Shown piece by piece: positions 46,387 through 63,441 of a stretch of DNA of 64,000 bases. The notes beneath the pieces are model-generated. The model did not search any database. It worked only from the letters and a program-made list of their open reading frames with translations, and had not been told where the DNA came from. Position numbers and translations under genes: made by a program. Source of the stretch: Mycolicibacterium anyangense (lineage in GTDB: Bacteria > Actinomycetota > Actinomycetes > Mycobacteriales > Mycobacteriaceae); the NCBI RefSeq assembly GCF_010731855.1, contig NZ_AP022620.1, positions 2,108,001-2,172,000 on the forward strand, read 5' to 3'. Within the stretch, counting starts at the first letter, position 1, and each line of letters opens with the position of its first letter.

Positions 46387-46436
46387 CGATCGGTCTCCTC
46401 ATCAACTTTCGGCGGAAACATCGTCGCCGTCGGCGC

Positions 46437-46446
46437 CAAATGTTAG
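46437..46446. promoter_or_regulatory. CAAATGTTAG box and candidate PfkB promoter
   Basis: The 10-mer CAAATGTTAG recurs exactly at 55150-55159. On the minus strand it reads CTAACATTTG, containing TAACAT (a -10 match) with TTTGAT 16 bases upstream as a possible -35 for the PfkB gene. It may be a coincidental shared -10. Confidence 0.35.
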
Positions 46447-46479
46447 TCGCGACTTGCCCCGATCAAAGAGCCGCGGTGC

Positions 46480-47484: not shown

Positions 47485-47568
47485 GCCGGTCGAGACTACC
47501 CGCTGCTGATGGCTTTTTGATGGATTCCTGGTGTTGATTGCGGTCTAGGTCACAGCAAGACTTGAGCC

Positions 47569-48729
47569 ATGACCGACGTCCGGGCACCGGCATCACCCTG
47601 GCTGGACGGCTCGGCACCCGGACTCGCCGAACTGCGACGGGTGGCCGAGCGGGAGACCGACCCGCGCTCTTACCCGCATGCCGCCCAGGTTCGCGACAAC
47701 ATCCTCGTCTACCGCGCTACGGATCTGGCCGACGCCGACCGTCGACTACTACAGGGTGAGCTCATCAGGGCCCTCACCGACGGCCCCGGTGTCGTGGTGT
47801 TCACCGGGGCGTTCGAACCTGCCGTCGTCGATGCGGCCAGCGCAGCGTTCGACACCCTCATCACAGTTCAGCGCGGCTCAGGCGGCACTGCCGGCGACCA
47901 CTTCGGCTCCGCCGGTGCCAATGACCGGCTGTGGAATGCCGCTCAGAAGCTGGCGCTGCAAGCACCCGAGGTGTACGCCGAGTACTACGCCAACGACGCG
48001 CTGGCCCTGATCTGCCAGGCCTGGCTGGGCCCGCGCTATCAGGTCACCGCACAGGTGAACGTGGTCAATCCCGGTGGCGCAGCCCAGGTTCCCCATCGCG
48101 ACTACCATCTCGGCTTCGTCACGCCGGCCCAGCTGGCCGACTATCCGGCCCATGTTCACCGACTGTCCCCGGCCCTGACCCTGCAAGGGGCGGTTGCCCA
48201 CACGGCAATGCCGGTGGAAAGCGGACCGACCATGCTGCTGCCCTATTCGCAGCTTGTCGAGGGCGGTTACCTGGCGTTCCACCGACCCGAATTCATCGAC
48301 TACTTCGCCAGCCATCACGTGCAGATCCCGTTGCAGAAGGGCGATGCTGTCTTCTTCAATCCGGCGCTGTATCACGGGGCGGGGGCCAACACCTCGGCCG
48401 ATATTCGGCGGATGGCCAACCTGCTGCAGGTCTCATCACCCTTCGGCCGGGCGATGGAGGCCCTCGACCACACCGCCATGGTGCGGGCCGTCTACCCGGC
48501 GCTGCGCGCGATGAGGGCGGCTGGCCGCGCACCCGCAGAACTGCTCAATGTCGTCGTCGCCGCCGCGGACGGCTATCCCTTCCCCACCAACCTCGACAAC
48601 GACCAGCCGATCGGCAGCCTTGCACCGCCCAGCCAGGTGGATGTGGTGCTCGCAGCGCTGGCCGACGACCTGACCCCCGATGCCCTCGACGTCGCGCTGC
48701 GCGACCAGAACGAACGGAGAATCCCATGA
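47569..48729 (+). CDS. Phytanoyl-CoA dioxygenase (PhyH) family Fe(II)/2-oxoglutarate enzyme
   Basis: A 386-residue double-stranded beta-helix protein. The iron-binding HxD is in VPHRDYHLGFV, the distal His in NPALYHGAGANTS, and a 2-oxoglutarate Arg in ADIRRMANLLQVS. PhyH proteins hydroxylate or oxidatively demethylate with 2-oxoglutarate and oxygen. It is the first gene of a tightly coupled set (ATGA overlap to the next) with sugar oxidoreductases and an epimerase, so its substrate is probably a sugar, a cyclitol or their ethers rather than phytanoyl-CoA. The start is ATG 47569; the upstream site is weak. Confidence 0.85.
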   Translation: MTDVRAPASPWLDGSAPGLAELRRVAERETDPRSYPHAAQVRDNILVYRATDLADADRRLLQGELIRALTDGPGVVVFTGAFEPAVVDAASAAFDTLITVQRGSGGTAGDHFGSAGANDRLWNAAQKLALQAPEVYAEYYANDALALICQAWLGPRYQVTAQVNVVNPGGAAQVPHRDYHLGFVTPAQLADYPAHVHRLSPALTLQGAVAHTAMPVESGPTMLLPYSQLVEGGYLAFHRPEFIDYFASHHVQIPLQKGDAVFFNPALYHGAGANTSADIRRMANLLQVSSPFGRAMEALDHTAMVRAVYPALRAMRAAGRAPAELLNVVVAAADGYPFPTNLDNDQPIGSLAPPSQVDVVLAALADDLTPDALDVALRDQNERRIP

Positions 48730-49733
48730 CCACACTCGGCGTCATCGGCCTGGGCCGAATCGGTGCATTTCATACCGAAACACTGAGCAACCTCGCCGGT
48801 GTCGACGGCCTTGTCGTCACCGACGAACGGCCGGACGTGGTGGCTGCGGTGGCTGCCAAGCACGGCGCCAAACCGGTGTATTCCGTTGAACAACTGCTTG
48901 ATTCAGGCATCGACGGAGTGGTGGTCGCGGCGGCCACGCCCGCCCACGCGGACCTGACACTGGCGGCGGTCGCCAAGGGACTGCCGACCTTCTGCGAGAA
49001 GCCGATTGCAGCCGGTGCCGCCGAGAGCGCGCGAGTGGCCGAGGTGATCGCCCGCTCCGGAGTCCCGGTGCAGGTGGGTTACCAACGTCGCTTCGACGCC
49101 GCCTTCGCGGCCGCCAAGCGGGCGGTGGACAACGGATCGCTGGGCACGTTGCACACCGTCCGCAGCACCACGATGGATCCCGCCCCGCCGCCGTTCGACT
49201 ACCTGGCCGGCTCGGGCGGCATCTTTCGCGACTGCGCGGTTCACGATTTCGACGCGTTGTGCTGGATCACCGGACAGCGTGCGGTGGAGGTGTACGCCAC
49301 CGGCAGCGTTCAGGGCGATCCGCGTTTCAACGAGATCGACGACGTGGACACCGCCGTCGTGGTCGTGACGTTCGAGAACGGCACACTAGGCGTGGTCTCG
49401 GCGGCCCGCTACAACGCTCGCGGGTACGACTGCCGGCTAGAAGTGCATGGATTCGACGATAGCGTGGTCGCCGGCTGGGACCAGGGAGTGCCGGTTCGAA
49501 ACACCGACCCGCACAACACCTTTCCGGAGGGCCCTGCGCACCATTTCTTCATGGATCGGTTCACCGACGCGTTCCGCGCCGAGCTGGCCGCCTTTGTCGA
49601 CGTGACCAAAGGCAGTGCCACCACCGGTGCCACAGTCGCCGATGCCGTTCAGGTGGCCTGGATCGCCGAGGCCGCCACTGAGTCACTGCACCGGCACGCG
49701 CCGGTGCGTATCGAGGAGGTACAAGCCCGATGA
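48726..49733 (+). CDS. Gfo/Idh/MocA oxidoreductase, inositol 2-dehydrogenase-like
   Basis: A 335-residue NAD-dependent dehydrogenase from ATG 48726. The nucleotide motif is GVIGLGRIGAFHTETL, the EKP motif is CEKPIAAGAAES, and the catalytic region is FRDCAVHDFDALCWITG, close to IolG enzymes. It would oxidise a ring hydroxyl of inositol or a related polyol. Its start is in the phyH stop (ATGA), and its own stop overlaps the next start the same way. The exact substrate is unknown; another IolG-like gene exists at 62434. Confidence 0.87.
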   Translation: MTTLGVIGLGRIGAFHTETLSNLAGVDGLVVTDERPDVVAAVAAKHGAKPVYSVEQLLDSGIDGVVVAAATPAHADLTLAAVAKGLPTFCEKPIAAGAAESARVAEVIARSGVPVQVGYQRRFDAAFAAAKRAVDNGSLGTLHTVRSTTMDPAPPPFDYLAGSGGIFRDCAVHDFDALCWITGQRAVEVYATGSVQGDPRFNEIDDVDTAVVVVTFENGTLGVVSAARYNARGYDCRLEVHGFDDSVVAGWDQGVPVRNTDPHNTFPEGPAHHFFMDRFTDAFRAELAAFVDVTKGSATTGATVADAVQVAWIAEAATESLHRHAPVRIEEVQAR

Positions 49734-50608
49734 ATCTCAAGATTGCCGGTGCCCCGATTTCCTGGGGTGTCTGCGAAGTCCCCGGCTGGGGCTACCAACT
49801 GACCCCTGACCGGGTGCTCGCCGAGATGGCCCAAGCCGGGCTGTCGGCCACCGAGCTGGGACCGGAGGGCTTCCTGCCGTCCGACCCCGCCGCACTGGTC
49901 ACCGTGCTCGATGAACACGGTCTGAGCTGTGTCGGCAGCTTCGCGCCGGTGGTGCTGCACGATCCCAGCCATGACCCGGTCACCGACGTGGCAGCGGTAC
50001 TGGATTCTCTTGTCGCGTCCCGTGGTTCGATGCTCGTTCTCGCGGCGGCCACCGGCACCGAGGGCTATGACTCCCGCCCTGAGCTCGACGAGGAGCAGTG
50101 GTCGACGTTGCTGTCCAACCTGGATCGGCTGGCCGCAGTCGCCGCCGAGCGGGGAATCACCGCGGTGCTGCATCCGCACGTCGGCACTATGGTCGAGAAA
50201 GGCGTCGAGGTGGACAGGGTGCTGACGGGTTCCTCGATCCAGTTGTGCCTGGACACCGGGCACCTGCTGATCGGCGGAACGGATCCACTGCTGTTGGCCC
50301 AGTCGGTACCTGACCGGATCGCCCACACCCACCTCAAGGATGTCGATGCGACGCTGGCCGCCAGCGTGCAGGCCGGTGAACTCACCTACACCGAGGCAGT
50401 CGCCCAGGGCATGTACACCCCGCTCGGCACGGGCGACGTCGACATTGCCGGAATCGTCACCGCGTTGTTGGCCAACGGCTTCGACGGCTGGTTCGTTCTC
50501 GAGCAGGACACCATTCTCAGCGGCGAGCCGGAAGGCCAAGGACCATTGCGCGACGTAGTGGCCAGCGTCACCCACCTGCGGGACATCGCCGGCCGCATCC
50601 CGGCATGA
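49730..50608 (+). CDS. TIM-barrel sugar isomerase/epimerase, IolE-like
   Basis: A 292-residue xylose-isomerase-like TIM barrel. IAGAPISWGVCEVPG, AVLHPHVGTMVEK, LCLDTGHLLIGGTDP and AHTHLKDVDA carry the metal-binding Glu/Asp/His set of inosose dehydratase (IolE) relatives. It would dehydrate or epimerise the ketone made by the upstream dehydrogenase. It overlaps both neighbours in ATGA junctions (49730-49733 and 50605-50608). A second IolE-like protein is encoded at 61517, so the two may handle different substrates. Confidence 0.82.
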   Translation: MNLKIAGAPISWGVCEVPGWGYQLTPDRVLAEMAQAGLSATELGPEGFLPSDPAALVTVLDEHGLSCVGSFAPVVLHDPSHDPVTDVAAVLDSLVASRGSMLVLAAATGTEGYDSRPELDEEQWSTLLSNLDRLAAVAAERGITAVLHPHVGTMVEKGVEVDRVLTGSSIQLCLDTGHLLIGGTDPLLLAQSVPDRIAHTHLKDVDATLAASVQAGELTYTEAVAQGMYTPLGTGDVDIAGIVTALLANGFDGWFVLEQDTILSGEPEGQGPLRDVVASVTHLRDIAGRIPA

Positions 50609-51582
50609 GCCTGCGAATCGGTGTCCTGGGCGCGGCGCGGATCGCCGAACAGGCCATCGTCGCACCGGCCCGTGAACTCGGTCACCGGCTGGTCGTGGTC
50701 GCCGCCCGCGACCCAAGCCGGGCCCGAGCCTTCGCCGAAGCCTACGGCGTGGAGCGCATCGCCGATTCCTACGCCGATGTCATCGGCGACGCCGAGGTCG
50801 ACCTGGTCTACAACCCGCTGGCCAATGCCTTGCATGCCCCATGGAACCTCGAGGCGATCAAGGCGGGCAAGCCGGTGCTCACCGAGAAGCCGTTCGCGCG
50901 CAACCACGATGAGGCTCGAGAGGTGGCCGATGCCGCCGAAGCCGCGGACATCAGCATCCTGGAGGGCTTTCACTACCTGTTCCATCCGGTGACCCGGCGA
51001 ATCTTCGAGCTGGCCACCGACGGAACTCTTGGCGACCTCCGGCATGTGGAAGTGCGGATGGCCATGCCGGCCCCGGCGGCCGACGATCCCCGCTGGTCGC
51101 TCGACCTGGCCGGTGGCGCGTTGATGGACTTGGGCTGCTACGGATTGCACATCATGCGACAGCTGGGTGCTCTCGGATTGGGCCGGCCCACGATCGCCGC
51201 TGCGCACGCCTCGCAGCGCAGCCCCGGTATCGACGAGTGGTGCGACGTCGAGCTCCGCTTCCCCACCGGCGCCACCGGATGCAGCGCCAATACCATGGCC
51301 GGACAGGCATTTTCGTTCACCATCACAGTGGTGGGCACCAAGGGTGACGCAGTCGCACACAACTTCATCAAGCCGCACAGTGACGACCGGATCACCATCC
51401 GCACACCACAATCGACCTGGGTGGAACACCTGGGGCTGCGACCGTCGTACTCCTATCAACTGGAGGCGTTCGCTGCGCACCTCCTCGATGGCATCGCCCT
51501 GCCGATCGGGGTTGGGGACGCGGTGCAGAACATGCACTACGTCGATGCCGCCTATCGCGCGGCGGGGATGTCACCACGCTGA
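50605..51582 (+). CDS. Gfo/Idh/MocA oxidoreductase
   Basis: A 325-residue dehydrogenase of the type near dimeric dihydrodiol or xylose dehydrogenases. IGVLGAARIAEQAIV, TEKPFARNHDEAREV and the ALMDLGCYGLHIMRQLG segment mark the subfamily, which is different from the IolG-like neighbour. Last of four coupled genes. The 3' end is followed 40 bases later by a deazaflavin reductase gene that may or may not belong to the same transcript. Confidence 0.85.
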   Translation: MSLRIGVLGAARIAEQAIVAPARELGHRLVVVAARDPSRARAFAEAYGVERIADSYADVIGDAEVDLVYNPLANALHAPWNLEAIKAGKPVLTEKPFARNHDEAREVADAAEAADISILEGFHYLFHPVTRRIFELATDGTLGDLRHVEVRMAMPAPAADDPRWSLDLAGGALMDLGCYGLHIMRQLGALGLGRPTIAAAHASQRSPGIDEWCDVELRFPTGATGCSANTMAGQAFSFTITVVGTKGDAVAHNFIKPHSDDRITIRTPQSTWVEHLGLRPSYSYQLEAFAAHLLDGIALPIGVGDAVQNMHYVDAAYRAAGMSPR

Positions 51583-52158: not shown

Positions 52159-52974
52159 TCAGCGACCCAGCTCGTGCGAGAGCGCCTCGAGTTCATCGCC
52201 GCCGGCCATCTCCTGGGTGAGGTGTTCGAGGGTGATGTCGTCGTAGGTGCAGTCCAGCTTCTGACGGCCGCGGTTGAGCAACACGAAGTGGTCGCCCACC
52301 ATGTGCGCGTGATGCGGGTTATGGGTGATGAACACGACGCCGAAGCCGGCTTCCTTGGCGGCGGTGATGTATTTGAGCACAACGCCGGACTGCTTGACGC
52401 CCAGCGCCGCGGTGGGCTCGTCGAGGATGAGCACTCGGGCGCCGAAGAACACCGCGCGCGCGATCGCCACACACTGGCGCTGACCGCCGGACAGCGAGCC
52501 GATCGGCACGTCGACGTCCGGTAGGTCGATGCCCATCTTGGACAGTTCGGACAGCGTGGTCGCCCGCATCGCGTTGGCATCCAGCGACCACGGAAAACTC
52601 TTCTTGCGGATCTCCTGGCCCAGGAAGAAGTTTCGCCACACCGGCATCAACGGCACGACGGCGAGGTTCTGGTACACCGTCGCGATGCCCTTACCCAAGG
52701 CCTCGGCGGGCGAGGAAAACCGGGTCGGTTCGCCGTCGACGAGCAGGTCTCCTTCGGTCTGCTGATGCAGCCCGGCGATGATCTTGATCAGCGTCGACTT
52801 GCCTGCGCCGTTGTCACCGAGGATGCCGGTCACCTCCCCGGCGTGCACCCGTAGGCAGATGTCCTTGAGCGCGGTGATGTTGCCGTAGCTCTTGCCGACG
52901 TTCTTCAACTCGACGAGGGGCACCTTGCCACCGGATTGCGAATCGCTGCTGGGTCTTTCGATAGAGATGGTCAT
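52159..52974 (-). CDS. Sugar ABC transporter ATP-binding protein
   Basis: A 271-residue ABC ATPase with one nucleotide-binding domain: Walker A GDNGAGKST (54-62), signature LSGGQRQ (161-167), Walker B VLILDEPTAALG (181-192) and switch His218 in FITHNP. Ribose-type systems usually have a tandem 500-residue ATPase; a single-domain form as here resembles FrcA-like systems, and it would dimerise. Last gene of the importer operon, 4 bases after the permease. The N-terminus (1-18) is a short disordered tail. Confidence 0.92.
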   Translation of the reverse strand: MTISIERPSSDSQSGGKVPLVELKNVGKSYGNITALKDICLRVHAGEVTGILGDNGAGKSTLIKIIAGLHQQTEGDLLVDGEPTRFSSPAEALGKGIATVYQNLAVVPLMPVWRNFFLGQEIRKKSFPWSLDANAMRATTLSELSKMGIDLPDVDVPIGSLSGGQRQCVAIARAVFFGARVLILDEPTAALGVKQSGVVLKYITAAKEAGFGVVFITHNPHHAHMVGDHFVLLNRGRQKLDCTYDDITLEHLTQEMAGGDELEALSHELGR

Positions 52975-52978
52975 GGCG

Positions 52979-54037
52979 TCATTTCTTCGCTGCGTAGTTA
53001 CGGAAGGCGTTGTTGGCGATCACCGCGAACAGCAGCATCGCGCCCAGGAAGAACTTGAACCAGTCGGGGTTCCAGCCGGCGTAGACGATGCCCTGATTGG
53101 TCATACCGAAGATGAAGGCACCGATGGCCGCACCCACGGCGGTGCCGTAACCACCGGTGAGCAGGCAGCCGCCGATGACTGCGGCGATGATGTAGAAGAA
53201 CTCGTTGCCGATGCCCTGACCGGACTGCACGGTGTTGAACGCGAACAGCAGGTGCATGCCGACGAACCAGGCGCAGAAGCCGACGAACATGAACAGCCCG
53301 ATCTTGACCTTGGTCACCGGAACACCCACGGCGCGTGCGCTCTCCGCGTCACCACCGACGGCGAAGATCCAGTTGCCGATCCTGGTCTTGAACAACACCC
53401 AGGTGGCCGCCGCGGTGAAGACCAGCCACCACACGACGGTGATCCGGATGCTCACACCGAACAGGGTGAACGACGAGGCGAACACCTTCTGCGCGGAATC
53501 CCAGCCCTGCATGTCATTGATGCTCTGGGTGGCGACCTGCCCGGCGAGGAGTTTGGTCACCGCAAGATTGATGCCGGCCAGCATGAAAAACGTGCTCAAC
53601 GTGATGAGGAAGGACGGAATCTTGGTTTTCATCACCAGAAAGCCGTTGAGGAAGCCGACGCCGAGCGCCAGGATCAATGCCAGCCCAGCGCCCGCCCAGA
53701 GATTGAGGTGCAGGTTGTAGGACAGCATCGAGGCCGCCAGCGAGCTGAACGTCACCGCGACGCCGGTCGACAGGTCGAACTCGCCGCCGATCATCAGCAC
53801 CGCGACGCCGCACGCCATGATGCCGATGGTGGAGCTGGCATAGAGCACGGTGGCCAGCGATGCGGCCTCCCGGAACGGCGCGGCCACGACGAGGAAGAAG
53901 ACGAAGATACCGATGGCACCGATGCCCGCGCCCATCTCGGGCCGAATCAGCAGGCGTTGCAGCCGGTTGCGTTCCTTGACACGGTCGTCCCGCACCACTT
54001 TGTGGTCGGCGACCTCGAGGTCTGCTTGCGTAGTCAT
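52979..54037 (-). CDS. Sugar ABC transporter permease
   Basis: A 352-residue permease of the RbsC/FrcB (BPD_transp_2) type with about eight to ten helices. The family signature VLMIGGEFDLSTGV is present, as are FLNGFLVMKTKIPSFLITL and VIGGCLLTGGYGTAVGAAIG. It moves a sugar or polyol across the membrane with the lipoprotein and ATPase encoded beside it. Placed 18 bases after the binding protein gene. Confidence 0.93.
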   Translation of the reverse strand: MTTQADLEVADHKVVRDDRVKERNRLQRLLIRPEMGAGIGAIGIFVFFLVVAAPFREAASLATVLYASSTIGIMACGVAVLMIGGEFDLSTGVAVTFSSLAASMLSYNLHLNLWAGAGLALILALGVGFLNGFLVMKTKIPSFLITLSTFFMLAGINLAVTKLLAGQVATQSINDMQGWDSAQKVFASSFTLFGVSIRITVVWWLVFTAAATWVLFKTRIGNWIFAVGGDAESARAVGVPVTKVKIGLFMFVGFCAWFVGMHLLFAFNTVQSGQGIGNEFFYIIAAVIGGCLLTGGYGTAVGAAIGAFIFGMTNQGIVYAGWNPDWFKFFLGAMLLFAVIANNAFRNYAAKK

Positions 54038-54055: not shown

Positions 54056-55042
54056 CTATCGGGTTCCGCCCTTGGCCAATTCGGCCACGGCGTCAATATT
54101 GGACTTGTCGATGAAGGACGGCCCGGTCAGCGTCGGCTGATTGCCACCGATGATGTTCTTGTTGCTCAGGTAGAGCCACAGCGAGTCGACAGCCAGATAG
54201 CCCTGCAGATAAGGCTGCTGGTCGACGGCCCATTGCACGTCGCCCTTCTGGATCGCATCGACCAACGCCGCGTTGGTGTCGAACGTCGCGACCTTGGCAT
54301 TGCTGGCCGCATTCTTGACCGATTGGACCGCCGTCAGCGCGAAGGGTGCACCGAGGGTCAGGATCGTGTCAATGGCCGGATCCTGTTGCAGCTTGGCCGT
54401 GATGGTCGACTCCACCGACGGCATGTCCTTGCCATTGACGTTGAGCACCTCGGTGGCCGGGAAGGTGTTCTTCACCCCGGCGCAGCGCGCTTCCAGATCA
54501 ACGTGGCCCTGTTCCTGGATCACACATACGACCTTCTTGGCACCGTCGGATTGCAACCGCTTACCGGCCTCCTGCCCGGCAATGTAGCCGTCCTGCCCGA
54601 AGTATTCCTTGACGCCCATTGCCTGCCAGGCGTCCAGCCCGGCGTTGAACGCGACCACGGGAATCCCCTTGGCTTCGGCGCCCTCGACGGCGGCCTTCAT
54701 CGCGTCCGGCTTGGCGAGTGTCACCGCGATGCCCTTCACCCCGCTGTCGATTGCGCTCTGGACGAGGTTCGCCTGGTTGGGTGCCTCGGGATCGCTGGAG
54801 TAGCGCAGCTCGATGTTGTCCTTCTTGGCGGCCGTCTCAGCACCCTTGCGGACCAGGTCCCAGAACGAGTCGCCGGGTGCCTCATGGGTGATCATCGCGA
54901 TCGTCATCCGGGGGGTGTCGACGGTGCCGCCGCCGGATCCTGCACCGTTGTCCCGCGGCTTGCCTCCGGTCGCCGAGCAGGCTGCGAGCCCGATGACGAG
55001 CGCGCTCGCTCCGGCCACGGCCGCTAGCCGATTGAACCTCAT
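54056..55042 (-). CDS. Sugar ABC transporter substrate-binding lipoprotein
   Basis: A 328-residue periplasmic-binding-type lipoprotein. The signal peptide ends in the lipobox GLAACS (Cys22), then a Gly-rich linker and a type I sugar-binding fold (MTIAMITHEAPGDSFWDLVR opening; DSGVKGIAVTLAKPDAM; NAGLDAWQAMGVKEYFGQDG). It binds the substrate outside the membrane. It is the first gene of the importer operon; the conserved regulatory element 55105-55158 lies directly upstream. Inositol or a related cyclitol is the likely ligand because the same element is at iolC. Confidence 0.92.
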   Translation of the reverse strand: MRFNRLAAVAGASALVIGLAACSATGGKPRDNGAGSGGGTVDTPRMTIAMITHEAPGDSFWDLVRKGAETAAKKDNIELRYSSDPEAPNQANLVQSAIDSGVKGIAVTLAKPDAMKAAVEGAEAKGIPVVAFNAGLDAWQAMGVKEYFGQDGYIAGQEAGKRLQSDGAKKVVCVIQEQGHVDLEARCAGVKNTFPATEVLNVNGKDMPSVESTITAKLQQDPAIDTILTLGAPFALTAVQSVKNAASNAKVATFDTNAALVDAIQKGDVQWAVDQQPYLQGYLAVDSLWLYLSNKNIIGGNQPTLTGPSFIDKSNIDAVAELAKGGTR

Positions 55043-55104
55043 GACGACTCCTTGTCCTCGACGACATCACGCACGACACGATGCTGTCTCGATGTAATAC
55101 GGCT

Positions 55105-55158
55105 CACAACCGAAAGTCAAGACTTTGTTCGGACATTAGGACTGCAGGTCAAATGTTA
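55105..55158 (-). promoter_or_regulatory. Conserved operator-promoter element, importer copy
   Basis: On the minus strand, blocks TAACATT, TGAC, AG.CC, AATGTC, ACAAAGT, TTGAC and GGTTGTG appear in the same order as at 56726-56782 before iolC; I count about 42 identical positions by hand. TTGACT with a TTACAT 17 bases on forms a possible promoter for the importer. It lies in the 126-base gap shared with the divergent isomerase gene. Confidence 0.7.
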
Positions 55159-55168
55159 GGGTCCGGCG

Positions 55169-55978
55169 ATGGCTGATTTCACGCTGGCGGTCTGCGCGGA
55201 GATGGTGTTCCGCGACCTGCCCATCCTGGAACGCGTGCGCCGGATCGACGCACTGGGCTTCGAGGTCGAGATCTGGAGCTGGCACGACAAAGACTTGGCG
55301 GCACTGGCCGGCACCGGCGCACGATTTTCCTCGATGACCGGCTATCTGCACGGCGACCTGATCGACCCCTCGAGCGCGGACGAGGTGGTGCGCACCGCCG
55401 CGTTGAGCATCAAAGCCGCTGAGCGACTGGGTGTTCCACGACTCAACGTGCACACGTCGGAATTGGCCGACGGCCAGGCCGCCCGCCCGCGGCATCGGGC
55501 CACCGGCCAGATGTGGCTGACCGCGCAACGCACGCTGGAACGTATCGGTGAGCTCGGGGCGAACGCCGGCGTGGTGTTCTGTGTGGAGAACCTCAACACG
55601 ATCGTCGATCATCCGGGCGTACCGCTGGCTCGCGCGAAAGACACCCTGGCACTCGTCGAGTCGGTGGGCCATCCGAACGTCAAGATGATGCTCGACCTCT
55701 ATCACGCTCAGATCGGCGAAGGAAATCTCATCGACCTGGTTCGGCGCTGTGGGCCGGCGATCGGCGAGATCCAGGTAGCCGACGTTCCCGGCCGCTGCGA
55801 GCCGGGAACCGGCGAGATCCACTACCCCGCTATCGCGGCCGCACTGCGCGAGATGGGTTACACCGGGACCGTCGGCTTGGAGGCGTGGGCATCGGGAGAC
55901 AGCGAGGCAGCGCTGGCAGCGTTTCGGACCGCCTTCTGCGCGACGAGTCAGCGGTCGACGACGGTGGTGTCGAAATAG
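55169..55978 (+). CDS. Hydroxypyruvate isomerase-like TIM-barrel protein
   Basis: A 269-residue TIM barrel of the Hyi/OtnI family: TLAVCAEMVFRDLPILERV, FEVEIWSWHDKDL, VVFCVENLNTIVDHPG, MMLDLYHAQIGEGNL and IQVADVPGRCEPGTGEIHY. It would isomerise a small keto acid or sugar such as hydroxypyruvate or a keto-tetronate. It is divergent from the importer operon and shares the control region. The 3' end overlaps the convergent GntR gene by 31 bases. Alternative: an IolH-like partner of inositol catabolism. Confidence 0.82.
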   Translation: MADFTLAVCAEMVFRDLPILERVRRIDALGFEVEIWSWHDKDLAALAGTGARFSSMTGYLHGDLIDPSSADEVVRTAALSIKAAERLGVPRLNVHTSELADGQAARPRHRATGQMWLTAQRTLERIGELGANAGVVFCVENLNTIVDHPGVPLARAKDTLALVESVGHPNVKMMLDLYHAQIGEGNLIDLVRRCGPAIGEIQVADVPGRCEPGTGEIHYPAIAAALREMGYTGTVGLEAWASGDSEAALAAFRTAFCATSQRSTTVVSK

Positions 55979-56679
55979 TATCGAGAGGCGCGATAGCAGT
56001 GCGCGCCGAATTCCACTGCCCGCCCGGAGTCGTCGAACGCCGTGCGGTCCATGGTGAGCAGCGGTGCACCGGGCTTCTCCTCCAACAGTCTGGCCTCGGT
56101 GCGGTTAGCAGCTCGTGCCCCGATGCGCTGACTGGCCAACCTAATGTGCACGCCGCGGGATCGTAGTGATTGATAGAGACCGCTGCGCTCGAGTTCCTCT
56201 GCCGCGGGGGCGATTTCGATGGGAAGGTAGTTCGTCATCAGCGCCAGCGGCTCGCCGTTGGCACACCGCAACCGTTTGATGCAGGCCACCTCGCGGTCGC
56301 CGGCCAGACTGAGTTCACGGGCCACGTCTTCATCGGGCACCCCGACGTGATACTCCAGCAGCTGCGTCGAGGGCTCTTGTCCAGCGCGAGCCAGATCGTC
56401 GAACAGGCTGGTGAGCTCGACTCGGCGATGAACGGGATTCTGCACGACCTGGGTCCCGACACCGCGCTTGCGGACCAACAATCCCTTGTCGACAAGCTCC
56501 TGGATGGCCCGCCTCGTCGTGGGTCTCGACAGCGTCAGCCGCTTGGCCAACGCCAGCTCGTTCTCGAATCGGTCACCAGGTGCGAGTTCGCCACTGCGGA
56601 TGGCAGCTTCAATCGCCTGAGCGAGCTGGTAGTACAGGGGAACAGGACTTGACCTGTCCAGTTCGACTGCCAACGGCAC
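55948..56679 (-). CDS. GntR/HutC-type transcriptional regulator (UTRA domain)
   Basis: A 243-residue regulator with a winged helix (residues 10-75; SSPVPLYYQLAQAIEAAIRS, GDRFENELALAKRLTLSRPT, GLLVRKRGVGTQV) and a UTRA effector domain (about 95-235). Divergent from iolC, it is the obvious candidate for control of the iol operon and importer, similar in role to the GntR-type IolR of Corynebacterium. A -10-like TAAACT (minus strand, 56722-56727) overlaps the conserved element, which suggests autoregulation. It overlaps the isomerase gene tail to tail. Confidence 0.87.
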   Translation of the reverse strand: MPLAVELDRSSPVPLYYQLAQAIEAAIRSGELAPGDRFENELALAKRLTLSRPTTRRAIQELVDKGLLVRKRGVGTQVVQNPVHRRVELTSLFDDLARAGQEPSTQLLEYHVGVPDEDVARELSLAGDREVACIKRLRCANGEPLALMTNYLPIEIAPAAEELERSGLYQSLRSRGVHIRLASQRIGARAANRTEARLLEEKPGAPLLTMDRTAFDDSGRAVEFGAHCYRASRYYFDTTVVDR

Positions 56680-56725
56680 ATCGACTCCGATCGAAGAAAC
56701 TCGAATCCCAACAGTAGCTGCAGTT

Positions 56726-56782
56726 TAACATTGATTGACACAAAGACCGAATGTCAGGACAAAGTATTGACATCAGGTTGTG
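56726..56782 (+). promoter_or_regulatory. Conserved operator-promoter element, iolC copy
   Basis: Block order TAACATT, TTGAC, AG.CC, AATGTC, ACAAAGT, TTGAC, GGTTGTG as in the importer copy. It contains TGTCAGGACA (56752-56761), which fits the reverse complement of the Corynebacterium IolR motif as I remember it, and the inverted pair ATGTCA/TGACAT. It lies between the divergent GntR and iolC genes. Confidence 0.7.
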
Positions 56783-56832
56783 GCGGGGGGCACAGTCATA
56801 ACAAGCCCCATCGAGCCCTGAAAAGAGCTGAC

Positions 56833-57804
56833 GTGACCAGTACCCCGCCCTTCGACGTCCTCGCCATCGGGCGCAGTGGAGTCGACATCTACCCCCTTCA
56901 GGTCGGTGTCGGCCTCGAGCAGGTGCAATCCTTCGGGAAGTTCTTGGGCGGGTCGGCCGCCAACGTTGCCGTGGCCGCCGCCCGGCTGGGCAACAGCGCC
57001 GCACTGATCTCCGGCGTAGGCAACGACCCGTTCGGGCGGTTCGTCCGCGCCGAGCTGGGCCGCCTCGGAGTCGACAACCGCTACGTCACCACCCACTCCG
57101 AGTACCCGACGCCGGTGACGTTCTGTGAGATCTTCCCGCCCGACGACTTCCCGCTGTACTTCTACCGCAAGCCCAGCGCCCCCGACCTCCAGATCGAGGC
57201 CGACGAATTGGATCTGACCGCCATCCGAGCTGCCCGACTCTACTGGTCGACAGTCACCGGACTGTCCGAAGAGCCCAGTCGCAGTGCACATTTCGCAGCC
57301 TGGCTGGCTCGTGGCAGGGCACCTTTGACCGTGCTGGACCTCGACTACCGCCCCATGTTCTGGGACTCCCCCGCCACAGCCTCCGAACAAGTCCACCGCG
57401 CGCTGGACCACGTCACCGTGGCGGTCGGCAACCGGGAGGAATGCGAGATCGCCGTCGGCGAGACCAATCCGCACAAGGCTGCCGACGCACTGCTCGACCT
57501 CGGCGTCGAACTGGCCATCGTCAAGCAGGGCCCGCGTGGCGTGCTCGGCAAGACCAGGAACGCGTCGGTAACGGTGCCTCCGGTCGACGTCGAGGTGGTC
57601 AACGGACTCGGCGCCGGCGACAGCTTCGGCGGCAGCCTCTGCCACGGACTGCTGCACGGCTGGCCGCTGGAGAAGACGTTGCGGTACGCCAACGCCGCAG
57701 GGGCTATCGTCGCCGCACGCCTGGAGTGCTCGACGGCGATGCCCACGGCCGCCGAAGTCGCCGCACTCGCCGAACAGACCGCTGTGGAGGCCGTCAATGT
57801 CTAG
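56833..57804 (+). CDS. iolC: 5-dehydro-2-deoxygluconokinase
   Basis: From GTG 56833 (VTSTPPFDVLAIGRSGVDIY) this gives 323 residues; the frame to 56731 runs back into the operator and is rejected. PfkB-fold kinase: FGKFLGGSAANVAVAAARLG on the substrate side, VVNGLGAGDSFGGSLCHGLL with the catalytic Asp. IolC phosphorylates 2-deoxy-5-keto-gluconate. It overlaps the next gene by 8 bases. First gene of the iol operon. Confidence 0.92.
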   Translation: MTSTPPFDVLAIGRSGVDIYPLQVGVGLEQVQSFGKFLGGSAANVAVAAARLGNSAALISGVGNDPFGRFVRAELGRLGVDNRYVTTHSEYPTPVTFCEIFPPDDFPLYFYRKPSAPDLQIEADELDLTAIRAARLYWSTVTGLSEEPSRSAHFAAWLARGRAPLTVLDLDYRPMFWDSPATASEQVHRALDHVTVAVGNREECEIAVGETNPHKAADALLDLGVELAIVKQGPRGVLGKTRNASVTVPPVDVEVVNGLGAGDSFGGSLCHGLLHGWPLEKTLRYANAAGAIVAARLECSTAMPTAAEVAALAEQTAVEAVNV

Positions 57805-58675
57805 CCCCTGCAAGGATTACGCCGATATCACCGAACTGCGCGCCACCGACCCCGCCGCGATCACCCGGGCCTGGCAGACCCGTACCACCCGAACCGCCAT
57901 CCGCGGCAACGGCCGGTTGATGATCGTGGCCGCCGACCACCCCGCCCGTGGTGCGCTGGCTGTCGGATCGCGGCCCACCGCGATGAACAGCCGCACCGAC
58001 CTGCTCGACCGGTTACGCACTGCGTTGGCCGATCCCGGTGTCGACGGGGTGCTGGCCACCTCGGACATCCTCGACGATCTGTTGCTGCTGGGGGCGTTGG
58101 AGGACAAGGTGGTGTTCTCCTCGATGAACCGCGGTGGGCTGGCCGGCTCCAGTTTCGAACTCGACGACCGGATGACCGCCGCGACCGCGAAGGCCACGGC
58201 TGCTGCCCGCATGAATGGTGGAAAGATGCTGTGCCGCATCGACCTTGCCGATCCCGGCACGGTAGCGACGCTGGCGGCCTGCGCACAGGCCGTCGACGAG
58301 CTCGCCGCACACGGACTGATCGCGATGCTCGAACCGTTCCTGTCCCGCCGGGTCGACGGCAAGGTCCGCAACGACCTCAGCCCCGACGCGGTGATCAAGT
58401 CCATCCACATCAGCCAGGGCCTGGGTTCGACATCGGCCTATACCTGGATGAAACTGCCGGTGGTCGCCGAAATGGATCGGGTCATGGATGCCACCACCCT
58501 GCCGACCCTGCTCCTGGGTGGCGACCCCACCGACCCCGACGAGGCGTTCGCCAGCTGGGAGAAAGCCCTTGCCCTGCCGTCGGTGCGTGGCCTGATCGTC
58601 GGGCGCACCCTGCTCTATCCGGCAGACGACGACGTGAGCTCCGCGGTGGCGACCGCCGTGGCGATGGTGCGGTGA
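57797..58675 (+). CDS. Cgl0159-type (beta/alpha)8 aldolase candidate
   Basis: A 292-residue TIM-barrel protein matching the Cgl0159-like family: MIVAADHPARGALAVGSRP near the start, then DGVLATSDILDDLL, MNRGGLAGSSFELDDRMTA and ISQGLGSTSAYTWMKLP. In corynebacterial iol clusters the same gene follows iolC and is thought to replace IolJ, cleaving the phosphorylated keto-gluconate to dihydroxyacetone phosphate and malonate semialdehyde. The role is by context; a class II aldolase is not otherwise seen here. Confidence 0.8.
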   Translation: MSSPCKDYADITELRATDPAAITRAWQTRTTRTAIRGNGRLMIVAADHPARGALAVGSRPTAMNSRTDLLDRLRTALADPGVDGVLATSDILDDLLLLGALEDKVVFSSMNRGGLAGSSFELDDRMTAATAKATAAARMNGGKMLCRIDLADPGTVATLAACAQAVDELAAHGLIAMLEPFLSRRVDGKVRNDLSPDAVIKSIHISQGLGSTSAYTWMKLPVVAEMDRVMDATTLPTLLLGGDPTDPDEAFASWEKALALPSVRGLIVGRTLLYPADDDVSSAVATAVAMVR

Positions 58676-58683
58676 AGGACGCG

Positions 58684-59553
58684 ATGAACAGCACGTACTA
58701 CATTCCGGCCCGAAGCGCCGAGCTCCCGTTCACCGTCGACGTCACCCCTGAGTCGGCCGGTTGGACCGAATCATCGCTGCGGATCGTCGAATTGGACGAG
58801 AGTCAACGCATCGAGCTGACCACCGGCGCCACCGAGGTCATGATCCTGCCGCTGGTCGGGGGCGGCAGGATCATGTGTGGCGACGAGACCTTCGAGCTCT
58901 CGCGGCGGGAATCGGTGTTCGACGGCCCTGCCGACATGGTTTACATCGGTATCGACAAGATCTACACCCTGACCGGCGAGGGCCGGTTCGCCATGTGTGG
59001 CGCCCGCGCGACTCGATCATTCCCGAACCGCCGGGTGGCCGCCACCGACGTGCCGGTCGAGTTGCGCGGCGCGGGCAACTGCAGCCGGCAGGTGCACAAC
59101 TTCGGCACCGCAACCACTTTCGAGGCCGATTCCCTGATCGCCTGTGAGGTGATCACCCCCAGCGGTAACTGGTCGAGCTACCCCGCTCACAAGCACGACG
59201 AGAACTCCGACGTCGAGACCCAACTCGAGGAGATCTACTACTTCGAGATCGCCGACAGCCCGGCCGGCACCCCCGGCTTCGGCTATCACCGGGTGTACGG
59301 CACTCCGGCACGCCCGATCGAGGTGCTCGAAGAAGTCCGCTCCGGTGACGTGGTGCTGGTCCCGCACGGCTATCACGGTCCGTCGATCGCCGCACCCGGC
59401 CACCACATGTACTACCTGAACGTCATGGCGGGTTCGGGTCCCAACCGGGCGTGGCTGATCTGTGACGACCCGAATCACACCTGGCTGCGGGACAGCTGGG
59501 AGCACCAGGAGATCGATCCGCGTCTGCCGATGCGCACCAACCGAGGAGTCTGA
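58684..59553 (+). CDS. iolB: 5-deoxy-glucuronate isomerase
   Basis: A 289-residue cupin from ATG 58684, which has AAGGA four bases upstream; GTG 58672 in a GTGA overlap with the previous stop is the alternative and adds four residues. IolB motifs: GSGRIMCGDETFEL-type strand, YPAHKHDENSDVETQLEEIY with the metal His/Glu set, and VLVPHGYHGPS. It converts 5-deoxyglucuronate to 2-deoxy-5-keto-gluconate. The long frame beginning at 58231 lies out of phase in the previous gene. Confidence 0.93.
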   Translation: MNSTYYIPARSAELPFTVDVTPESAGWTESSLRIVELDESQRIELTTGATEVMILPLVGGGRIMCGDETFELSRRESVFDGPADMVYIGIDKIYTLTGEGRFAMCGARATRSFPNRRVAATDVPVELRGAGNCSRQVHNFGTATTFEADSLIACEVITPSGNWSSYPAHKHDENSDVETQLEEIYYFEIADSPAGTPGFGYHRVYGTPARPIEVLEEVRSGDVVLVPHGYHGPSIAAPGHHMYYLNVMAGSGPNRAWLICDDPNHTWLRDSWEHQEIDPRLPMRTNRGV

Positions 59554-59555
59554 CC

Positions 59556-61505
59556 GTGGTATCCACCGCGCCGAAGTCGACCGAGAAGCTGGCCGACACC
59601 GAAGCCACCGTGCGGCTGACCGTTGCTCAGGCCACCGTCCGGTTCCTCGCCAACCAGTACGTCGAGCGCGACGGCGTGCGCACCAAGTTCTTCGCCGGGT
59701 GCCTCGGAATCTTCGGGCACGGCAATGTCGCCGGACTCGGCCAGGCGCTCCTGCAGGACGAGGTCCACTCGTTGGCCGCCGGCCGCGAACCCGCTCTGCG
59801 GTACGTGCTGGGCCGCAACGAGCAAGCCATGGTGCACACCGCCGTCGCCTTTGCGCGTCAGAAGGACCGGCTGGCGACCTGGGCCGTCACCGCCAGCGTC
59901 GGACCCGGCTCCACCAACATGCTCACCGGCGCGGCGTTGGCGACCATCAACCGGTTGCCGGTGTTGCTGCTGCCCGCCGACACCTTCGCCACCCGGGTCA
60001 GTGCCCCGGTTCTCCAGGAACTCGAGCTGCCCTGCGCCGGCGACGTAACGGTCAACGACGCCTTCAAACCCTTGTCCCGTTACTTCGACCGGGTCTGGCG
60101 TCCTGAGCAGCTGCCCGCTGCACTGCTCGGTGCCATGCGGGTGCTGACCGATCCGGTCGAGACCGGTGCGGCGACGGTGTCGGTCCCCCAGGACGTCCAG
60201 GCGCAGGCGCACGATTGGCCGAAATCGCTGTTCGCCGAACGCACCTGGCACATCGCCCGCCCGCTGCCCGAGCGCTCGGTGATCGCCCGGGCCGCCGAGA
60301 TCATCGCCGCGGCCAGTAAGCCACTGATTGTCGCCGGTGGCGGTGTGCACTACTCCGCGGCCGAACAGGCTCTGGCAGCCCTGGCCGAGAGGACGGGCAT
60401 CCCCGTCTCGGAGAGTCAGGCTGGCAAAGGGTCGCTGCCGTTCGACCATCCGCAAGCCGTGGGTGCGGTCGGCTCGACGGGTACCACCGCAGCCAACGCA
60501 CTGGCCGCCGAAGCTGACGTGGTCATCGGAATCGGCACTCGCTACAGCGATTTCACCTCGGCGTCACGCACGGCGTTCAACAACCCCGAGGTGCGGTTCG
60601 TCAACATCAACGTCGCCTCGCTGGATGCGGTCAAGCAGGGCGGCGTCAGCGTCGTCGCCGATGCCCGGGAAGCTCTCGAGGCACTGGCTGAGGCGCTGGA
60701 CCACTACACCGTCGGCGACGAATACCGCTCCCGCATCACCGAACTGGCCGCCGAATGGGACGACACCGTGTCCTCGGTGTACGCCTGCGAAGACGGGGTG
60801 CAGCTCAACCAGAATCAGGTCATCGGGTTGGTGAATACCCTGTCGGATCCGCGTGACGTGGTGGTGTGTGCCGCGGGCTCGATGCCTGGGGACCTGCACA
60901 AGTTGTGGCGCACCCGCGACCGCAAGGGATATCACGTCGAATACGGTTACTCGTGCATGGGCTACGAGATCGCCGGCGGTATCGGCGTGCGGATGGCCGA
61001 CACCGACCGCGACGTGTTCGTCATGGTCGGCGACGGCTCCTACCTGATGATGGCCACCGAATTGGTGACCGCCGTCCAGGAGGGCGTCAAGATCATCCCG
61101 GTACTGGTGCAGAACCACGGATTCGCCTCCATCGGTGGACTTTCAGAGTCAGTGGGTTCGCAGCGGTTCGGTACCGCCTACCGCTACCGCGGTGACGGCG
61201 GGCGCCTGGACGGCGGCACGCTTCCGGTCGATCTGGCCGCCAATGCCGCGAGCCTGGGCGCCGACGTCATCAAGGTCGCCACCGCCGCCGAGTTCGCCGA
61301 CGCGGTCAAGGCCGCCAAGGCGGCCGACACGGTCACCGTGATTCATGTCGAGACCGACCCGTTGGTCTACGCACCTGACAGCCAGTCCTGGTGGGATGTC
61401 CCCGTCAGCGAGGTCTCCAGTCTGGAATCCACCCAGGCGGCTTATCAGCGGTATGCCGACTGGAAGAAAGTGCAACGCCCCCTGGTCAATCCGTCGGATC
61501 GATAG
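59556..61505 (+). CDS. iolD: 3D-(3,5/4)-trihydroxycyclohexane-1,2-dione hydrolase
   Basis: A 649-residue thiamine-diphosphate enzyme from GTG 59556, with GAGGAG seven bases upstream overlapping the iolB end. It shows the acetolactate-synthase-like architecture: N-terminal Pyr domain (RNEQAMVHTAVAFARQ), central domain, and C-terminal PP domain with VMVGDGSYLMMATELV and VLVQN. IolD hydrolyses the C-C bond of the trihydroxycyclohexanedione ring, the ring-opening step of inositol breakdown. Normal length. Confidence 0.94.
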   Translation: MVSTAPKSTEKLADTEATVRLTVAQATVRFLANQYVERDGVRTKFFAGCLGIFGHGNVAGLGQALLQDEVHSLAAGREPALRYVLGRNEQAMVHTAVAFARQKDRLATWAVTASVGPGSTNMLTGAALATINRLPVLLLPADTFATRVSAPVLQELELPCAGDVTVNDAFKPLSRYFDRVWRPEQLPAALLGAMRVLTDPVETGAATVSVPQDVQAQAHDWPKSLFAERTWHIARPLPERSVIARAAEIIAAASKPLIVAGGGVHYSAAEQALAALAERTGIPVSESQAGKGSLPFDHPQAVGAVGSTGTTAANALAAEADVVIGIGTRYSDFTSASRTAFNNPEVRFVNINVASLDAVKQGGVSVVADAREALEALAEALDHYTVGDEYRSRITELAAEWDDTVSSVYACEDGVQLNQNQVIGLVNTLSDPRDVVVCAAGSMPGDLHKLWRTRDRKGYHVEYGYSCMGYEIAGGIGVRMADTDRDVFVMVGDGSYLMMATELVTAVQEGVKIIPVLVQNHGFASIGGLSESVGSQRFGTAYRYRGDGGRLDGGTLPVDLAANAASLGADVIKVATAAEFADAVKAAKAADTVTVIHVETDPLVYAPDSQSWWDVPVSEVSSLESTQAAYQRYADWKKVQRPLVNPSDR

Positions 61506-61516
61506 CGGCCCGCCCG

Positions 61517-62422
61517 GTGAGTACGATTCTGGTCGGATCAGCCCCCGACTCCTGGGGAGTCTGGTTCCCCGACGACCCACTGCAGACGCCCTACACCCGT
61601 TTTCTCGACGAGGTCTCGGCCGCGGGATATCAATGGATTGAACTCGGCCCGTTCGGCTACCTACCGACCGACCCCGGGCAACTTTCCGACGAGCTGGCGG
61701 CTCGCAACCTGAAGCTGTCGGCGGGCACCGTGTTCGAGCACCTGCACCAGGATGATTCCTGGAGTGCCGTCTGGAGGCAGATCGAAGATGTCGCGAAACT
61801 GACTGCCGCCGTCGGCGGTAAGCACGTGGTGGTGATCCCGGAAATGTGGCGCGATGCGTCCTCGGGCGCGGTGCTCGAGGATCGCACCCTCAGTGCCGAA
61901 CAGTGGCGCAAGAAGACCCGCGGCATGAATGAACTGGGCAAGGCGATGTTCGAGCAGTACGGGGTGCGGGCGCAGTACCACCCACACGCCGACAGCCACG
62001 TCGACACCGAGGAGTCCGTGTACCGCTTCCTCGACGGCACCGACGGCGCGTTCGTCAACCTGTGCCTGGACACCGGCCACATCTCTTACTGCGGCGGAGA
62101 CAACATCGCCATCATCCGACGGGCACCTGAGCGCATCGGCTACCTGCACCTCAAACAGGTCGACCCCCGGGTCCGGGCCAGGGTCGAGGCCGAGGACTTG
62201 CCGTTCGGCGAGGCCGTCAAGCTCGGCGCGATGATCGAGCCGCCACACGGAATCCCATATATGCCAACACTTCTCGCCGAGATCGATAAGCTCGGAATCG
62301 ATGTGTTCGCCATCGTCGAGCAGGACATGTACCCGTGCGATCCCGACGCACCGCTGCCCATCGCCACCCGCACCAGCGCATATCTCGTTTCGTGTGGGGT
62401 CCCGTCGGTGCAATTGCGCTAG
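61517..62422 (+). CDS. iolE: IolE-like TIM-barrel protein (inosose dehydratase candidate)
   Basis: From GTG 61517 this gives 301 residues; the frame to 61391 overlaps iolD and is rejected. SAPDSWGVWFPDDPLQTPY, AQYHPHADSHVDTEESVYR, LCLDTGHISYCGGDN and IGYLHLKQVDPRVR carry the metal-binding set of the IolE family. In this position it is the likely 2-keto-myo-inositol dehydratase. It has no clear Shine-Dalgarno, so a start a little further in is possible. It is 11 bases after iolD and 11 before the dehydrogenase. Confidence 0.83.
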   Translation: MSTILVGSAPDSWGVWFPDDPLQTPYTRFLDEVSAAGYQWIELGPFGYLPTDPGQLSDELAARNLKLSAGTVFEHLHQDDSWSAVWRQIEDVAKLTAAVGGKHVVVIPEMWRDASSGAVLEDRTLSAEQWRKKTRGMNELGKAMFEQYGVRAQYHPHADSHVDTEESVYRFLDGTDGAFVNLCLDTGHISYCGGDNIAIIRRAPERIGYLHLKQVDPRVRARVEAEDLPFGEAVKLGAMIEPPHGIPYMPTLLAEIDKLGIDVFAIVEQDMYPCDPDAPLPIATRTSAYLVSCGVPSVQLR

Positions 62423-62433
62423 GAGCCTGCGTC

Positions 62434-63441
62434 ATGTCTGACTTGAGGATTGCGGTGCTCGGTGCCGGTGTGATGGGTGCGGACCACGTCGCCCGCATCA
62501 CCGCACGGATATCGGGGGCCCGGGTGTCGGTGGTCAACGACTACCTCACCGAGAAGGCCCAGCAGCTCGCCGCTTCGATTCCGGGCTGCCGCGCGGTCGC
62601 CGACCCGCTCGAGGCAGTCGCGGACGTTCAAGTCGACGCAGTGCTGCTGGCGTCCCCGGGTCCGGCCCACGACAAGCAACTGCTCGCCTGCCTGGAGCAC
62701 CGCAAGCCGGTGTTGTGTGAGAAGCCACTGACTACCGATGTCGCCTCGGCACTGGAGATCGTGCGCCGTGAGGCCGAGCTCGGCGCTCCCCTGATCCAGG
62801 TGGGTTTCATGCGCCGCTTCGACCACGAATACGCGGCACTGAAGGCCCACATCGACGGCGGCGGGCTCGGCCAGCCCCTGGTGATGCACTGCGTGCATCG
62901 CAATCCGGCGGTGCCACCGTCATTCGACAGTTCGATGGTGGTCCGGGATTCCCTGGTGCACGAAGTTGACGTGACACGGTTCCTGTTCGGCGAGGAGATC
63001 GCCAGCATCCAGATCGTGCGTCCGAGTCCGAATCCCCTTGCACCGCAGGGGTTGCAGGATCCGCAGATCGCGATCATGAAGACCGTCAGCGGCCGCCATG
63101 TCGACGTCGAGCTGTTCGTGACGACCGGGGTGGCCTACGAGGTGCGCACCGAGGTGGTCGGGGAACGCGGCAGCGCCATGATCGGCCTGGACGTGGGGCT
63201 GGTCCGCACATCGGCGCCCGGCACGTGGGGCGGGACGATCGCCCCGGGCTTCCGGGAGCGGTTCGGACAGGCCTACGACACCGAGGTTCAGCGCTGGGTG
63301 GACGCCGTTCGAAGCGGTGTCAACGTCGACGGACCGACCGCATGGGACGGTTACGCCGCGACCGCGGTGTGCGAGGCCGGCGTCCGCGCCCTCGACAGCG
63401 GTGACGTGGTCCCGGTGGAACTGGCTCGCCGTGACGGGTAA
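62434..63441 (+). CDS. iolG: Inositol 2-dehydrogenase-like Gfo/Idh/MocA oxidoreductase
   Basis: A 335-residue enzyme from ATG 62434, with AGGAG nine bases upstream. LRIAVLGAGVMGADHVARIT is the NAD fold, CEKPLTTDVASALEIV the EKP region, and VVRDSLVHEVDVTRFLFGEE the catalytic part typical of IolG. It would oxidise myo-inositol to the 2-keto form, the first step, placed last in the operon as in Corynebacterium. The stop codon lies in a small hairpin. Confidence 0.88.
   Translation: MSDLRIAVLGAGVMGADHVARITARISGARVSVVNDYLTEKAQQLAASIPGCRAVADPLEAVADVQVDAVLLASPGPAHDKQLLACLEHRKPVLCEKPLTTDVASALEIVRREAELGAPLIQVGFMRRFDHEYAALKAHIDGGGLGQPLVMHCVHRNPAVPPSFDSSMVVRDSLVHEVDVTRFLFGEEIASIQIVRPSPNPLAPQGLQDPQIAIMKTVSGRHVDVELFVTTGVAYEVRTEVVGERGSAMIGLDVGLVRTSAPGTWGGTIAPGFRERFGQAYDTEVQRWVDAVRSGVNVDGPTAWDGYAATAVCEAGVRALDSGDVVPVELARRDG

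Follow-up and report, generated by a model that had tools for sequence, protein, structure and literature searches.

The window, by which we mean the whole 64-kb stretch of DNA that was analysed, carries the genes of an ABC-type importer and a row of inositol-breakdown genes, with the gene of a GntR-family regulator between them (Table 1). The best PDB match of the importer's substrate-binding protein, 4ru1, is described as a verified myo-inositol transporter (PMC10747050, partial text). Among the breakdown genes, iolC, iolB and iolD exceeded their family cut-offs and the iolE-like and iolG-like genes missed theirs; the gene in the aldolase position (57797–58675) falls into the Cgl0159-like family, and no NCBIfam model matched it at E 0.001 or better. 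The available text of PMC10747050 proposes MSMEI_4538–4540 as the inositol importer of M. smegmatis, clustered with IolB (MSMEI_4544) and IolG (MSMEI_4547), identifies two IolG orthologues and IolB in that species, and reports that the importer ATPase and binding protein rose by 3 log-fold in DMEM, a myo-inositol-containing medium that differs in far more than inositol. The gene order of MSMEI_4538–4547 resembles that of the window, the comparison being one of order and not of sequences.

Table 1. Genes and predicted regulatory features of the inositol locus (window coordinates)
Feature	Position	Strand	Basis
Importer ATPase	52159–52974	−	Profile match
Importer permease	52979–54037	−	Profile match
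Importer substrate-binding protein	54056–55042	−	Best PDB match 4ru1, E 8.5e-107
Putative importer −10 region, TTACATC	55091–55097	−	Conserved block +41 to +47
CRP-like site TGTGAGCCGTATTACA, overlapping the −10	55093–55108	−	9 of 10 to TGTGA-N6-TCACA (consensus PMC7739888)
Putative importer −35, TTGACT, overlapped by AAAGTC-TT-GACTTT	55115–55120	−	TTGAC in 65/65 instances (selected by the pattern)
22-base core AATGTCCGAACAAAGTCTTGAC, importer side (operator and start of −35)	55116–55137	−	Pattern searches
Predicted IolR operator core TGTCCGAACA, importer side	55126–55135	−	Conserved column block, 65 importer-side instances
Probable isomerase-gene −10, TAGGGT (divergent)	55157–55162	+	TA[AG]CA block distribution
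Sugar isomerase-like TIM-barrel protein, divergent from importer	55169–55978	+	PF01261
iolR, GntR-family regulator with UTRA domain, 243 aa	55948–56679	−	PF00392 52.9 bits, PF07702 120.9 bits, both above cut-off
Probable iolR −10, TACTGT (divergent)	56711–56716	−	Sequence
22-base core AATGTCAGGACAAAGTATTGAC, iolC side	56750–56771	+	Pattern searches
Predicted IolR operator core TGTCAGGACA, iolC side (minus strand TGTCCTGACA)	56752–56761	+	Exact decamer in 70/89 distinct iolC-side instances
Putative iolC −35, TTGACA	56767–56772	+	Sequence, column conservation
CRP-like site TGTGGCGGGGGGCACA, overlapping the −10	56779–56794	+	8 of 10 to TGTGA-N6-TCACA
Putative iolC −10 region, CACAGT, spacer 18	56791–56796	+	Conserved block +42 to +47
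iolC, 5-dehydro-2-deoxygluconokinase	56833–57804	+	TIGR04382 above cut-off
Remaining breakdown genes: aldolase-position gene (PF22649), iolB, iolD, iolE-like, iolG-like	57797–63441	+

A composite sequence in front of the importer and iolC genes

Local alignment of the importer/isomerase gap (minus strand, 55158–55105) with the GntR/iolC gap (plus strand, 56726–56782) reproduced the coordinates of both copies of the element that had been noticed by eye, and gave exactly 42 identical positions among 54 aligned (57 columns with one 3-base gap), where the hand count had been about 42. The alignment score was 53, as against a mean of 17.9, a standard deviation of 3.0 and a maximum of 35 for 2000 pairs of dinucleotide shuffles. 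The compared stretches (130 and 150 bases) have GC contents of 51% and 49%, versus 67.6% for the window. No Rfam model reached its gathering threshold across 54900–57000, and an RNA element was rejected on that ground.

To collect further instances of the element, we used a 22-mer pattern, AATGTC-N-GRACAAA-S-T-N-TTGAC, written AATGTCNGRACAAASTNTTGAC. The collection comprises 157 distinct instances: iolC follows 89 of them and the binding-protein gene 65, and 3 are followed by neither; the count covers the loci below L161 together with L180, and sites that lie away from locus ends and have at most three mismatches. Some instances are shifted by one base between the two blocks described below and were left unrealigned. 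The column profile separates into two blocks, at about −14 to +23 and +30 to +47, and the importer-side TAACAT tracks the divergent gene rather than the operator. A single regulatory element of about 55 bp, as originally envisaged, was thus given up; judged by its sequence, the stretch is a composite of a predicted operator, a −35, a block belonging to the divergent promoter and a CRP-like half site.

Across the 65 importer-side and 89 iolC-side instances, block one combines the operator AATGTCNGRACAAA and the −35 TTGACA/T with TGA(C) and with a side-specific sequence, AAAG(T) or TGCAGTCC. Because the search pattern demanded part of this block, some of its invariance follows from the selection; the block's outer columns are free of the pattern, and block two lies beyond it. 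Each side also has columns of its own, namely TGCAGTCC and TTACATC in the 65 importer-side instances and AAAG and GCACAGT in the 89 iolC-side ones.

In both modules the operator decamer is a TGTC-NN-RACA palindrome placed immediately upstream of the −35. When compared with KGWCHTRACA, which we take to be the operator motif of Corynebacterium IolR, the iolC-side core agreed at all 10 positions (on the minus strand) and the importer-side core at 9 of them; across the collection, 74 of the 89 iolC-side and 31 of the 65 importer-side instances scored 10, and all others scored 9. The fit to the Corynebacterium motif named in the original prediction is borne out in these numbers; a full-text literature search for the string KGWCHTRACA found no paper. 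A second, weaker palindrome, GTC-NN-GAC, has its centre 11 bp further on and overlaps the −35; on the importer side it reads GTCTTGAC, and the AAAGTC-TT-GACTTT over the importer −35 is possibly a second, weaker pair of IolR half-sites. Of the multi-site operator that the original prediction had pictured, one clear decamer, TGTCNNRACA, and this weaker palindrome are retained, whereas TAACAT would belong to the divergent promoter and GGTTGTG to a CRP-like half site.

A strict sigma-70 promoter scan and a terminator scan of 55000–56900 found none, so that it is conservation that marks the −10 boxes. The TAACAT block most plausibly belongs to the promoter of the divergent gene. Of the importer-side instances, 17 have a divergent isomerase gene close by, and TA[AG]CA occurs in 13 of these as against none of the other 48; on the iolC side, 82 of 89 instances lie close to the divergent regulator gene, and the block is found in 62 of these 82 and in 3 of the remaining 7. 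At the g6 and g24 loci, a TACACT lies at the same distance from TAACAT as TACTGT does here. With TAGGGT as its −10, the isomerase gene would have its ATG (55169) at or near the start of the transcript.

Occurrence in the genome and among relatives

The genome from which the window derives (5,696,751 bases, one contig) was searched by pattern with mismatches allowed, with the reversed pattern as a control. With up to 3 mismatches, the 22-mer matched at two places alone in the whole 5.70-Mb genome (reversed control 0), and the shorter pattern WWTGTCMKRACAWW found the same two places alone (reversed control 0). The looser ATGTCNNRACAAANNNTTGAC matched the importer and iolC sites without mismatch and gave 12 additional matches at 3 mismatches, which we ascribe to chance because the reversed control likewise yielded 12. 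The genome-wide motif scan that had been recommended thus confines the element to these two promoters; the scatter over many unrelated genes that had been named as counter-evidence was not seen in this genome. Since the patterns match at two places only, the IolR regulon here probably consists of two promoter regions.

A second inositol-type cluster lies at 45547–51582 of the window and includes a LacI-family regulator (46480–47484), an iolE-like gene (49730–50608), an iolG-like gene (50605–51582) and a PhyH-type oxygenase. We considered it as a further target and rejected it: TGTCNNRACA is absent from the cluster (45.5–51.6 kb), and the sole match to KGWCHTRACA, at 48950, is intragenic. Lacking a TGTCNNRACA site, the cluster is probably under separate control.

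The genus sample comprised 198 genomes, and an orthologue of the GntR regulator is encoded in 68 of them (73–100% identity, E at most 8.6e-113; next match 2e-33). Allowing up to 2 mismatches, the 22-mer was present in all 68 of these genomes as against 2 of the 130 others, as cross-tabulated by hand; the two genomes with the pattern and without the orthologue (G026 and G070) have one copy each, with 2 mismatches. All but one of the 68 hold at least two copies, the exception, G191, having one. The association recurred in a sample of 301 genomes of the family, where the orthologue (E below 1e-90, 60–100% identity) occurs in 76, and the pattern in 61 of these 76 versus 1 of the other 225 (G395, 2 mismatches). 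Reversed patterns gave 0 matches in both samples. In total the 22-mer is present in 10 genera. Six of them (g1, g6, g9, g16, g24 and g25), those where the genes were identified, have the element at both promoters; g19, g22, g28 and g29 have single matches only, one to two mismatches off. In three genomes of g25 (L156, L160 and G221), both copies of the element read TGTT for TGTC, a parallel change at the two promoters.

The 15 orthologue-bearing genomes of the family sample in which the 22-mer is missing comprise 12 of g30 and 3 of g9. We analysed nine iolC regions devoid of the 22-mer (five of g30, three of g9, and G225) and scanned three more (L202, L203 and L206) for the decamer. The eight inspected among the 15 genomes have an altered decamer near the start of iolC, which is TGACAGGACA in 5/5 g30 regions; an intact decamer lies farther upstream in 2/3 of the g9 regions. 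In 7 of the 9 regions, a decamer with 0 or 1 mismatch to TGTYNNRACA, mostly one, directly follows TAGATT or TACATT, a box that looks like a −10; a decamer so placed would cover the transcription start, which is a repressor position. L202 and L203 contain the decamer; L206 does not, and its genome gave no GntR match with an E value of 1e-30 or less.

As to the genes that follow the element, 154 of the 157 collected instances stand at iolC or the binding-protein gene, and in the genome of the window the sites are confined to inositol genes. Among 18 further regions, picked by hand to cover other genera and unusual additional copies, 13 have a copy before a binding-protein gene. Binding-protein paralogues distant from the iol cluster are preceded by extra copies at L143, L144 and L146, and there the remote gene has the same operator plus a TGTGA-N6-TTACA block. 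Other extra copies precede a Gfo/Idh-type dehydrogenase (L147) and a gene 28% identical to the iolE-like 49730 gene of the window (L149). At L148 (G251, contig C46), a second iolC beside an Idh-like gene has its own TGTTAGGACA-type element, and the genome keeps the usual copy too. The site at L145 has no downstream gene identified by the automated annotation of the hand-picked regions, and that at L158, with 2 mismatches, precedes a protein that has no match among the window proteins.

The GntR regulator and its proposed control of both promoters

HutC/FarR-type GntR repressors (DasR, YvoA/NagR and PhnF) share the UTRA domain with the window regulator and have palindromic GTC-NN-GAC-like operators; their ligands and targets are other than those considered here. 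The window regulator did not reach the cut-offs of the HutC-, PhnF- or Rv0792c-type NCBIfam equivalogs (120.2 of 220, 119 of 156.8 and 117 of 400 bits, respectively). The IolR proteins of Bacillus and Salmonella are of the DeoR and RpiR types, families unrelated to the GntR-type IolR, and do the same job of repressing inositol genes.

A closer relative was found in genus g3, which we assign to Corynebacterium because named Corynebacterium loci encode regulators 83–84% identical to the g3 query. iolC occurs in 8 of 242 g3 genomes, and in 8/8 it has a divergent GntR protein 50–53% identical to that of the window. The regulator on the iolC side of G527, presumably C. glutamicum ATCC 13032, shares 127 of 243 residues with the window protein (52% over 239 aa), including 53 of 79 in the DNA-reading region and 27 of 30 in the recognition stretch. 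The iolC promoter of G527 features TTTGTCAGGACAATG, which holds the window's iolC-side decamer, then TTGTCATGACAT 19 bp on, and also TGTCATGACA. With the G527 protein we found 20 named loci, from Corynebacterium, Microbacteriaceae and one Mycobacterium MAG; in 19 of them, all but L175, the 500 bp in front of the regulator gene contain a TGTCNNRACA-type decamer. These stretches add up to 10 kb, and by hand count they hold 27 of the 38 decamers of this type present in about 396 kb.

According to the parts of these papers that were available, C. glutamicum IolR is a repressor of iolT1 that is released by myo-inositol (PMC8634428), mutation of its operator abolished binding (PMC5948850), and 22 genes are under its control (PMC6475665). 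The C. glutamicum regulon and the locus described here have in common a GntR/UTRA regulator divergent from iolC, the decamer TGTCAGGACA in the iolC promoter, and genes of both uptake and breakdown. They differ in that the importer here is an ABC system and not the IolT symporter that the C. glutamicum papers name, that sites occur at two places as opposed to 22 controlled genes (PMC6475665, partial text), and that here a −35 and a CRP-like site adjoin the operator.

Because the shared element is unique to the two places in the genome, tracks the GntR gene and has the same decamer at Corynebacterium iolC, it is very probably the IolR operator. The idea that an operator of the GntR regulator couples uptake to breakdown, put forward in the original prediction, is strengthened by this exclusive occurrence, by the co-occurrence with the GntR gene, by the spread over 10 genera and by the Corynebacterium decamer. 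We consider it highly likely that the two copies are operator–promoter modules of IolR, a GntR/UTRA repressor encoded between them, and that both are shut in the absence of inositol. In such a scheme, an IolR dimer would sit on TGTC-NN-RACA upstream of the importer and iolC −35 boxes when inositol is lacking, the weaker GTC-NN-GAC over the −35 perhaps assisting as a second contact, and the bound protein would deny RNA polymerase access to both promoters, and probably also to those of the divergent iolR and isomerase genes. An inositol-derived ligand would then bind the UTRA domain and release IolR, so that uptake and breakdown would start together. The CRP-like site over both −10 regions might provide a second, cAMP-linked input.

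The position of the operator upstream of the −35 also suits an activator, and we weighed the reading that IolR is an activator or dual regulator, the operator with a good −35 and a poor −10 serving to recruit polymerase in the presence of inositol. This arrangement in both modules and the weakness of the −10 boxes agree with it. We nevertheless regard it as unlikely, since the C. glutamicum relative of this regulator acts as a repressor according to PMC8634428 and PMC5948850 (partial texts) and since the decamer in 7/9 of the diverged iolC regions comes right after TAGATT/TACATT, over the probable start site. Less likely still is that the block mainly serves another regulator, CRP or the LacI-type protein of 46480–47484, with IolR incidental to it: CRP-like halves do occur in both modules at an equal distance and at the best-scoring offset of the aligned region, but the TGTCNNRACA core is unlike a CRP site, its presence tracks the GntR gene (68/68 versus 2/130), and Microbacteriaceae have kept the decamer by itself in front of the regulator gene. 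That the similarity reflects a recent promoter duplication or a repeat without shared regulation is scarcely credible, for the 42/54 identity within one window that speaks for it is countered by the existence of two genome copies only, by the retention of two or more copies in 67/68 genomes, and by the specific columns that each side keeps across 65 and 89 instances.

Control by IolR as a repressor, if correct, would assign an operator with its exact bases, a regulator and a two-promoter regulon to inositol uptake and use in mycobacteria and their relatives, and might explain the rise of the M. smegmatis importer in the myo-inositol medium (PMC10747050, partial text). A literature search, which reached subscription papers poorly and full texts partially, turned up no account of a mycobacterial IolR operator. 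The type of regulon is already known from IolR; any novelty would lie in the composite with the CRP-like site, which raises the question of a cAMP input.

A CRP-like site over the −10 regions

The GGTTGTG shared by the two gaps supplies the left half of the CRP-like site that overlaps the −10, a feature absent from the original prediction. The mycobacterial Crp consensus is given as TGTGA-N6-TCACA (PMC7739888, partial text). On the importer side, block two reads TGTGA-N6-TTACATC, with TGTGA in 55 and TTACA in 55 of the 65 instances; on the iolC side it reads GTG-N8-CACAGT, with GCACA in 70 of the 89 instances and GTG in about 87%. When all offsets of the 142-base region were scored against TGTGA-N6-TCACA, +30 came out on top in both groups, and at least 8 of 10 bases agreed in 86% of the 65 importer-side and 67% of the 89 iolC-side instances. 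The site thus shares the spacing and 8–9 of 10 bases with the mycobacterial Crp sites of PMC7739888 (partial text), and differs from them in its imperfect right half and in its placement over the −10.

How much of this conservation speaks for CRP is limited by the promoter itself: the right half coincides with the −10 and so is not independent evidence, whereas the left half sits in the spacer. There is about an even chance that TGTGA-N6-TTACA and GTG-N8-CAC are mere promoter sequence and no CRP site. In keeping with this, the 55 TTACA instances of the importer side have T and not C as the second base of the right half, and the left half is absent or displaced by one base in some instances: 10 of the 65 importer-side instances are not TGTGA there, and the iolC side of L153 lacks TGTG. 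M. smegmatis, moreover, reportedly uses inositol in the presence of a thousandfold excess of glucose (PMC10747050, partial text), which argues against strict catabolite repression through the site. What a promoter alone does not readily account for is the left half, where TGTGA (55/65, importer side) and GTG (about 87%, iolC side) are kept within the spacer and amid poorly conserved neighbouring columns on the iolC side. We therefore put forward, tentatively and with somewhat less confidence than the promoter-only explanation, that the two promoters may be copies of one two-input module, made up of an IolR operator, a −35 and a CRP (GlxR-type) site across the −10 and held in near-fixed phase over several genera, through which inositol and cAMP would jointly set uptake and breakdown.

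In the Corynebacterium iolC promoters inspected (L134–L141), GTGA-N6-CCACA follows the IolR-type site in 8/8; should the two-input module be real, this would make the pairing of IolR with a CRP-like site an old one. A literature search for papers treating GlxR together with iolC found none. The sequence concerned, GTGAGGNTCGCCACA, lies a few bases past the last IolR-type decamer in 8/8 of these promoters and resembles a GlxR site. Within the 64-kb window, TGTGA-N6-TCACA with at most one mismatch occurs at four places; two CRP-like sites, with one mismatch each, stand 23 bp apart at 41059–41097, and another is found at 40190.
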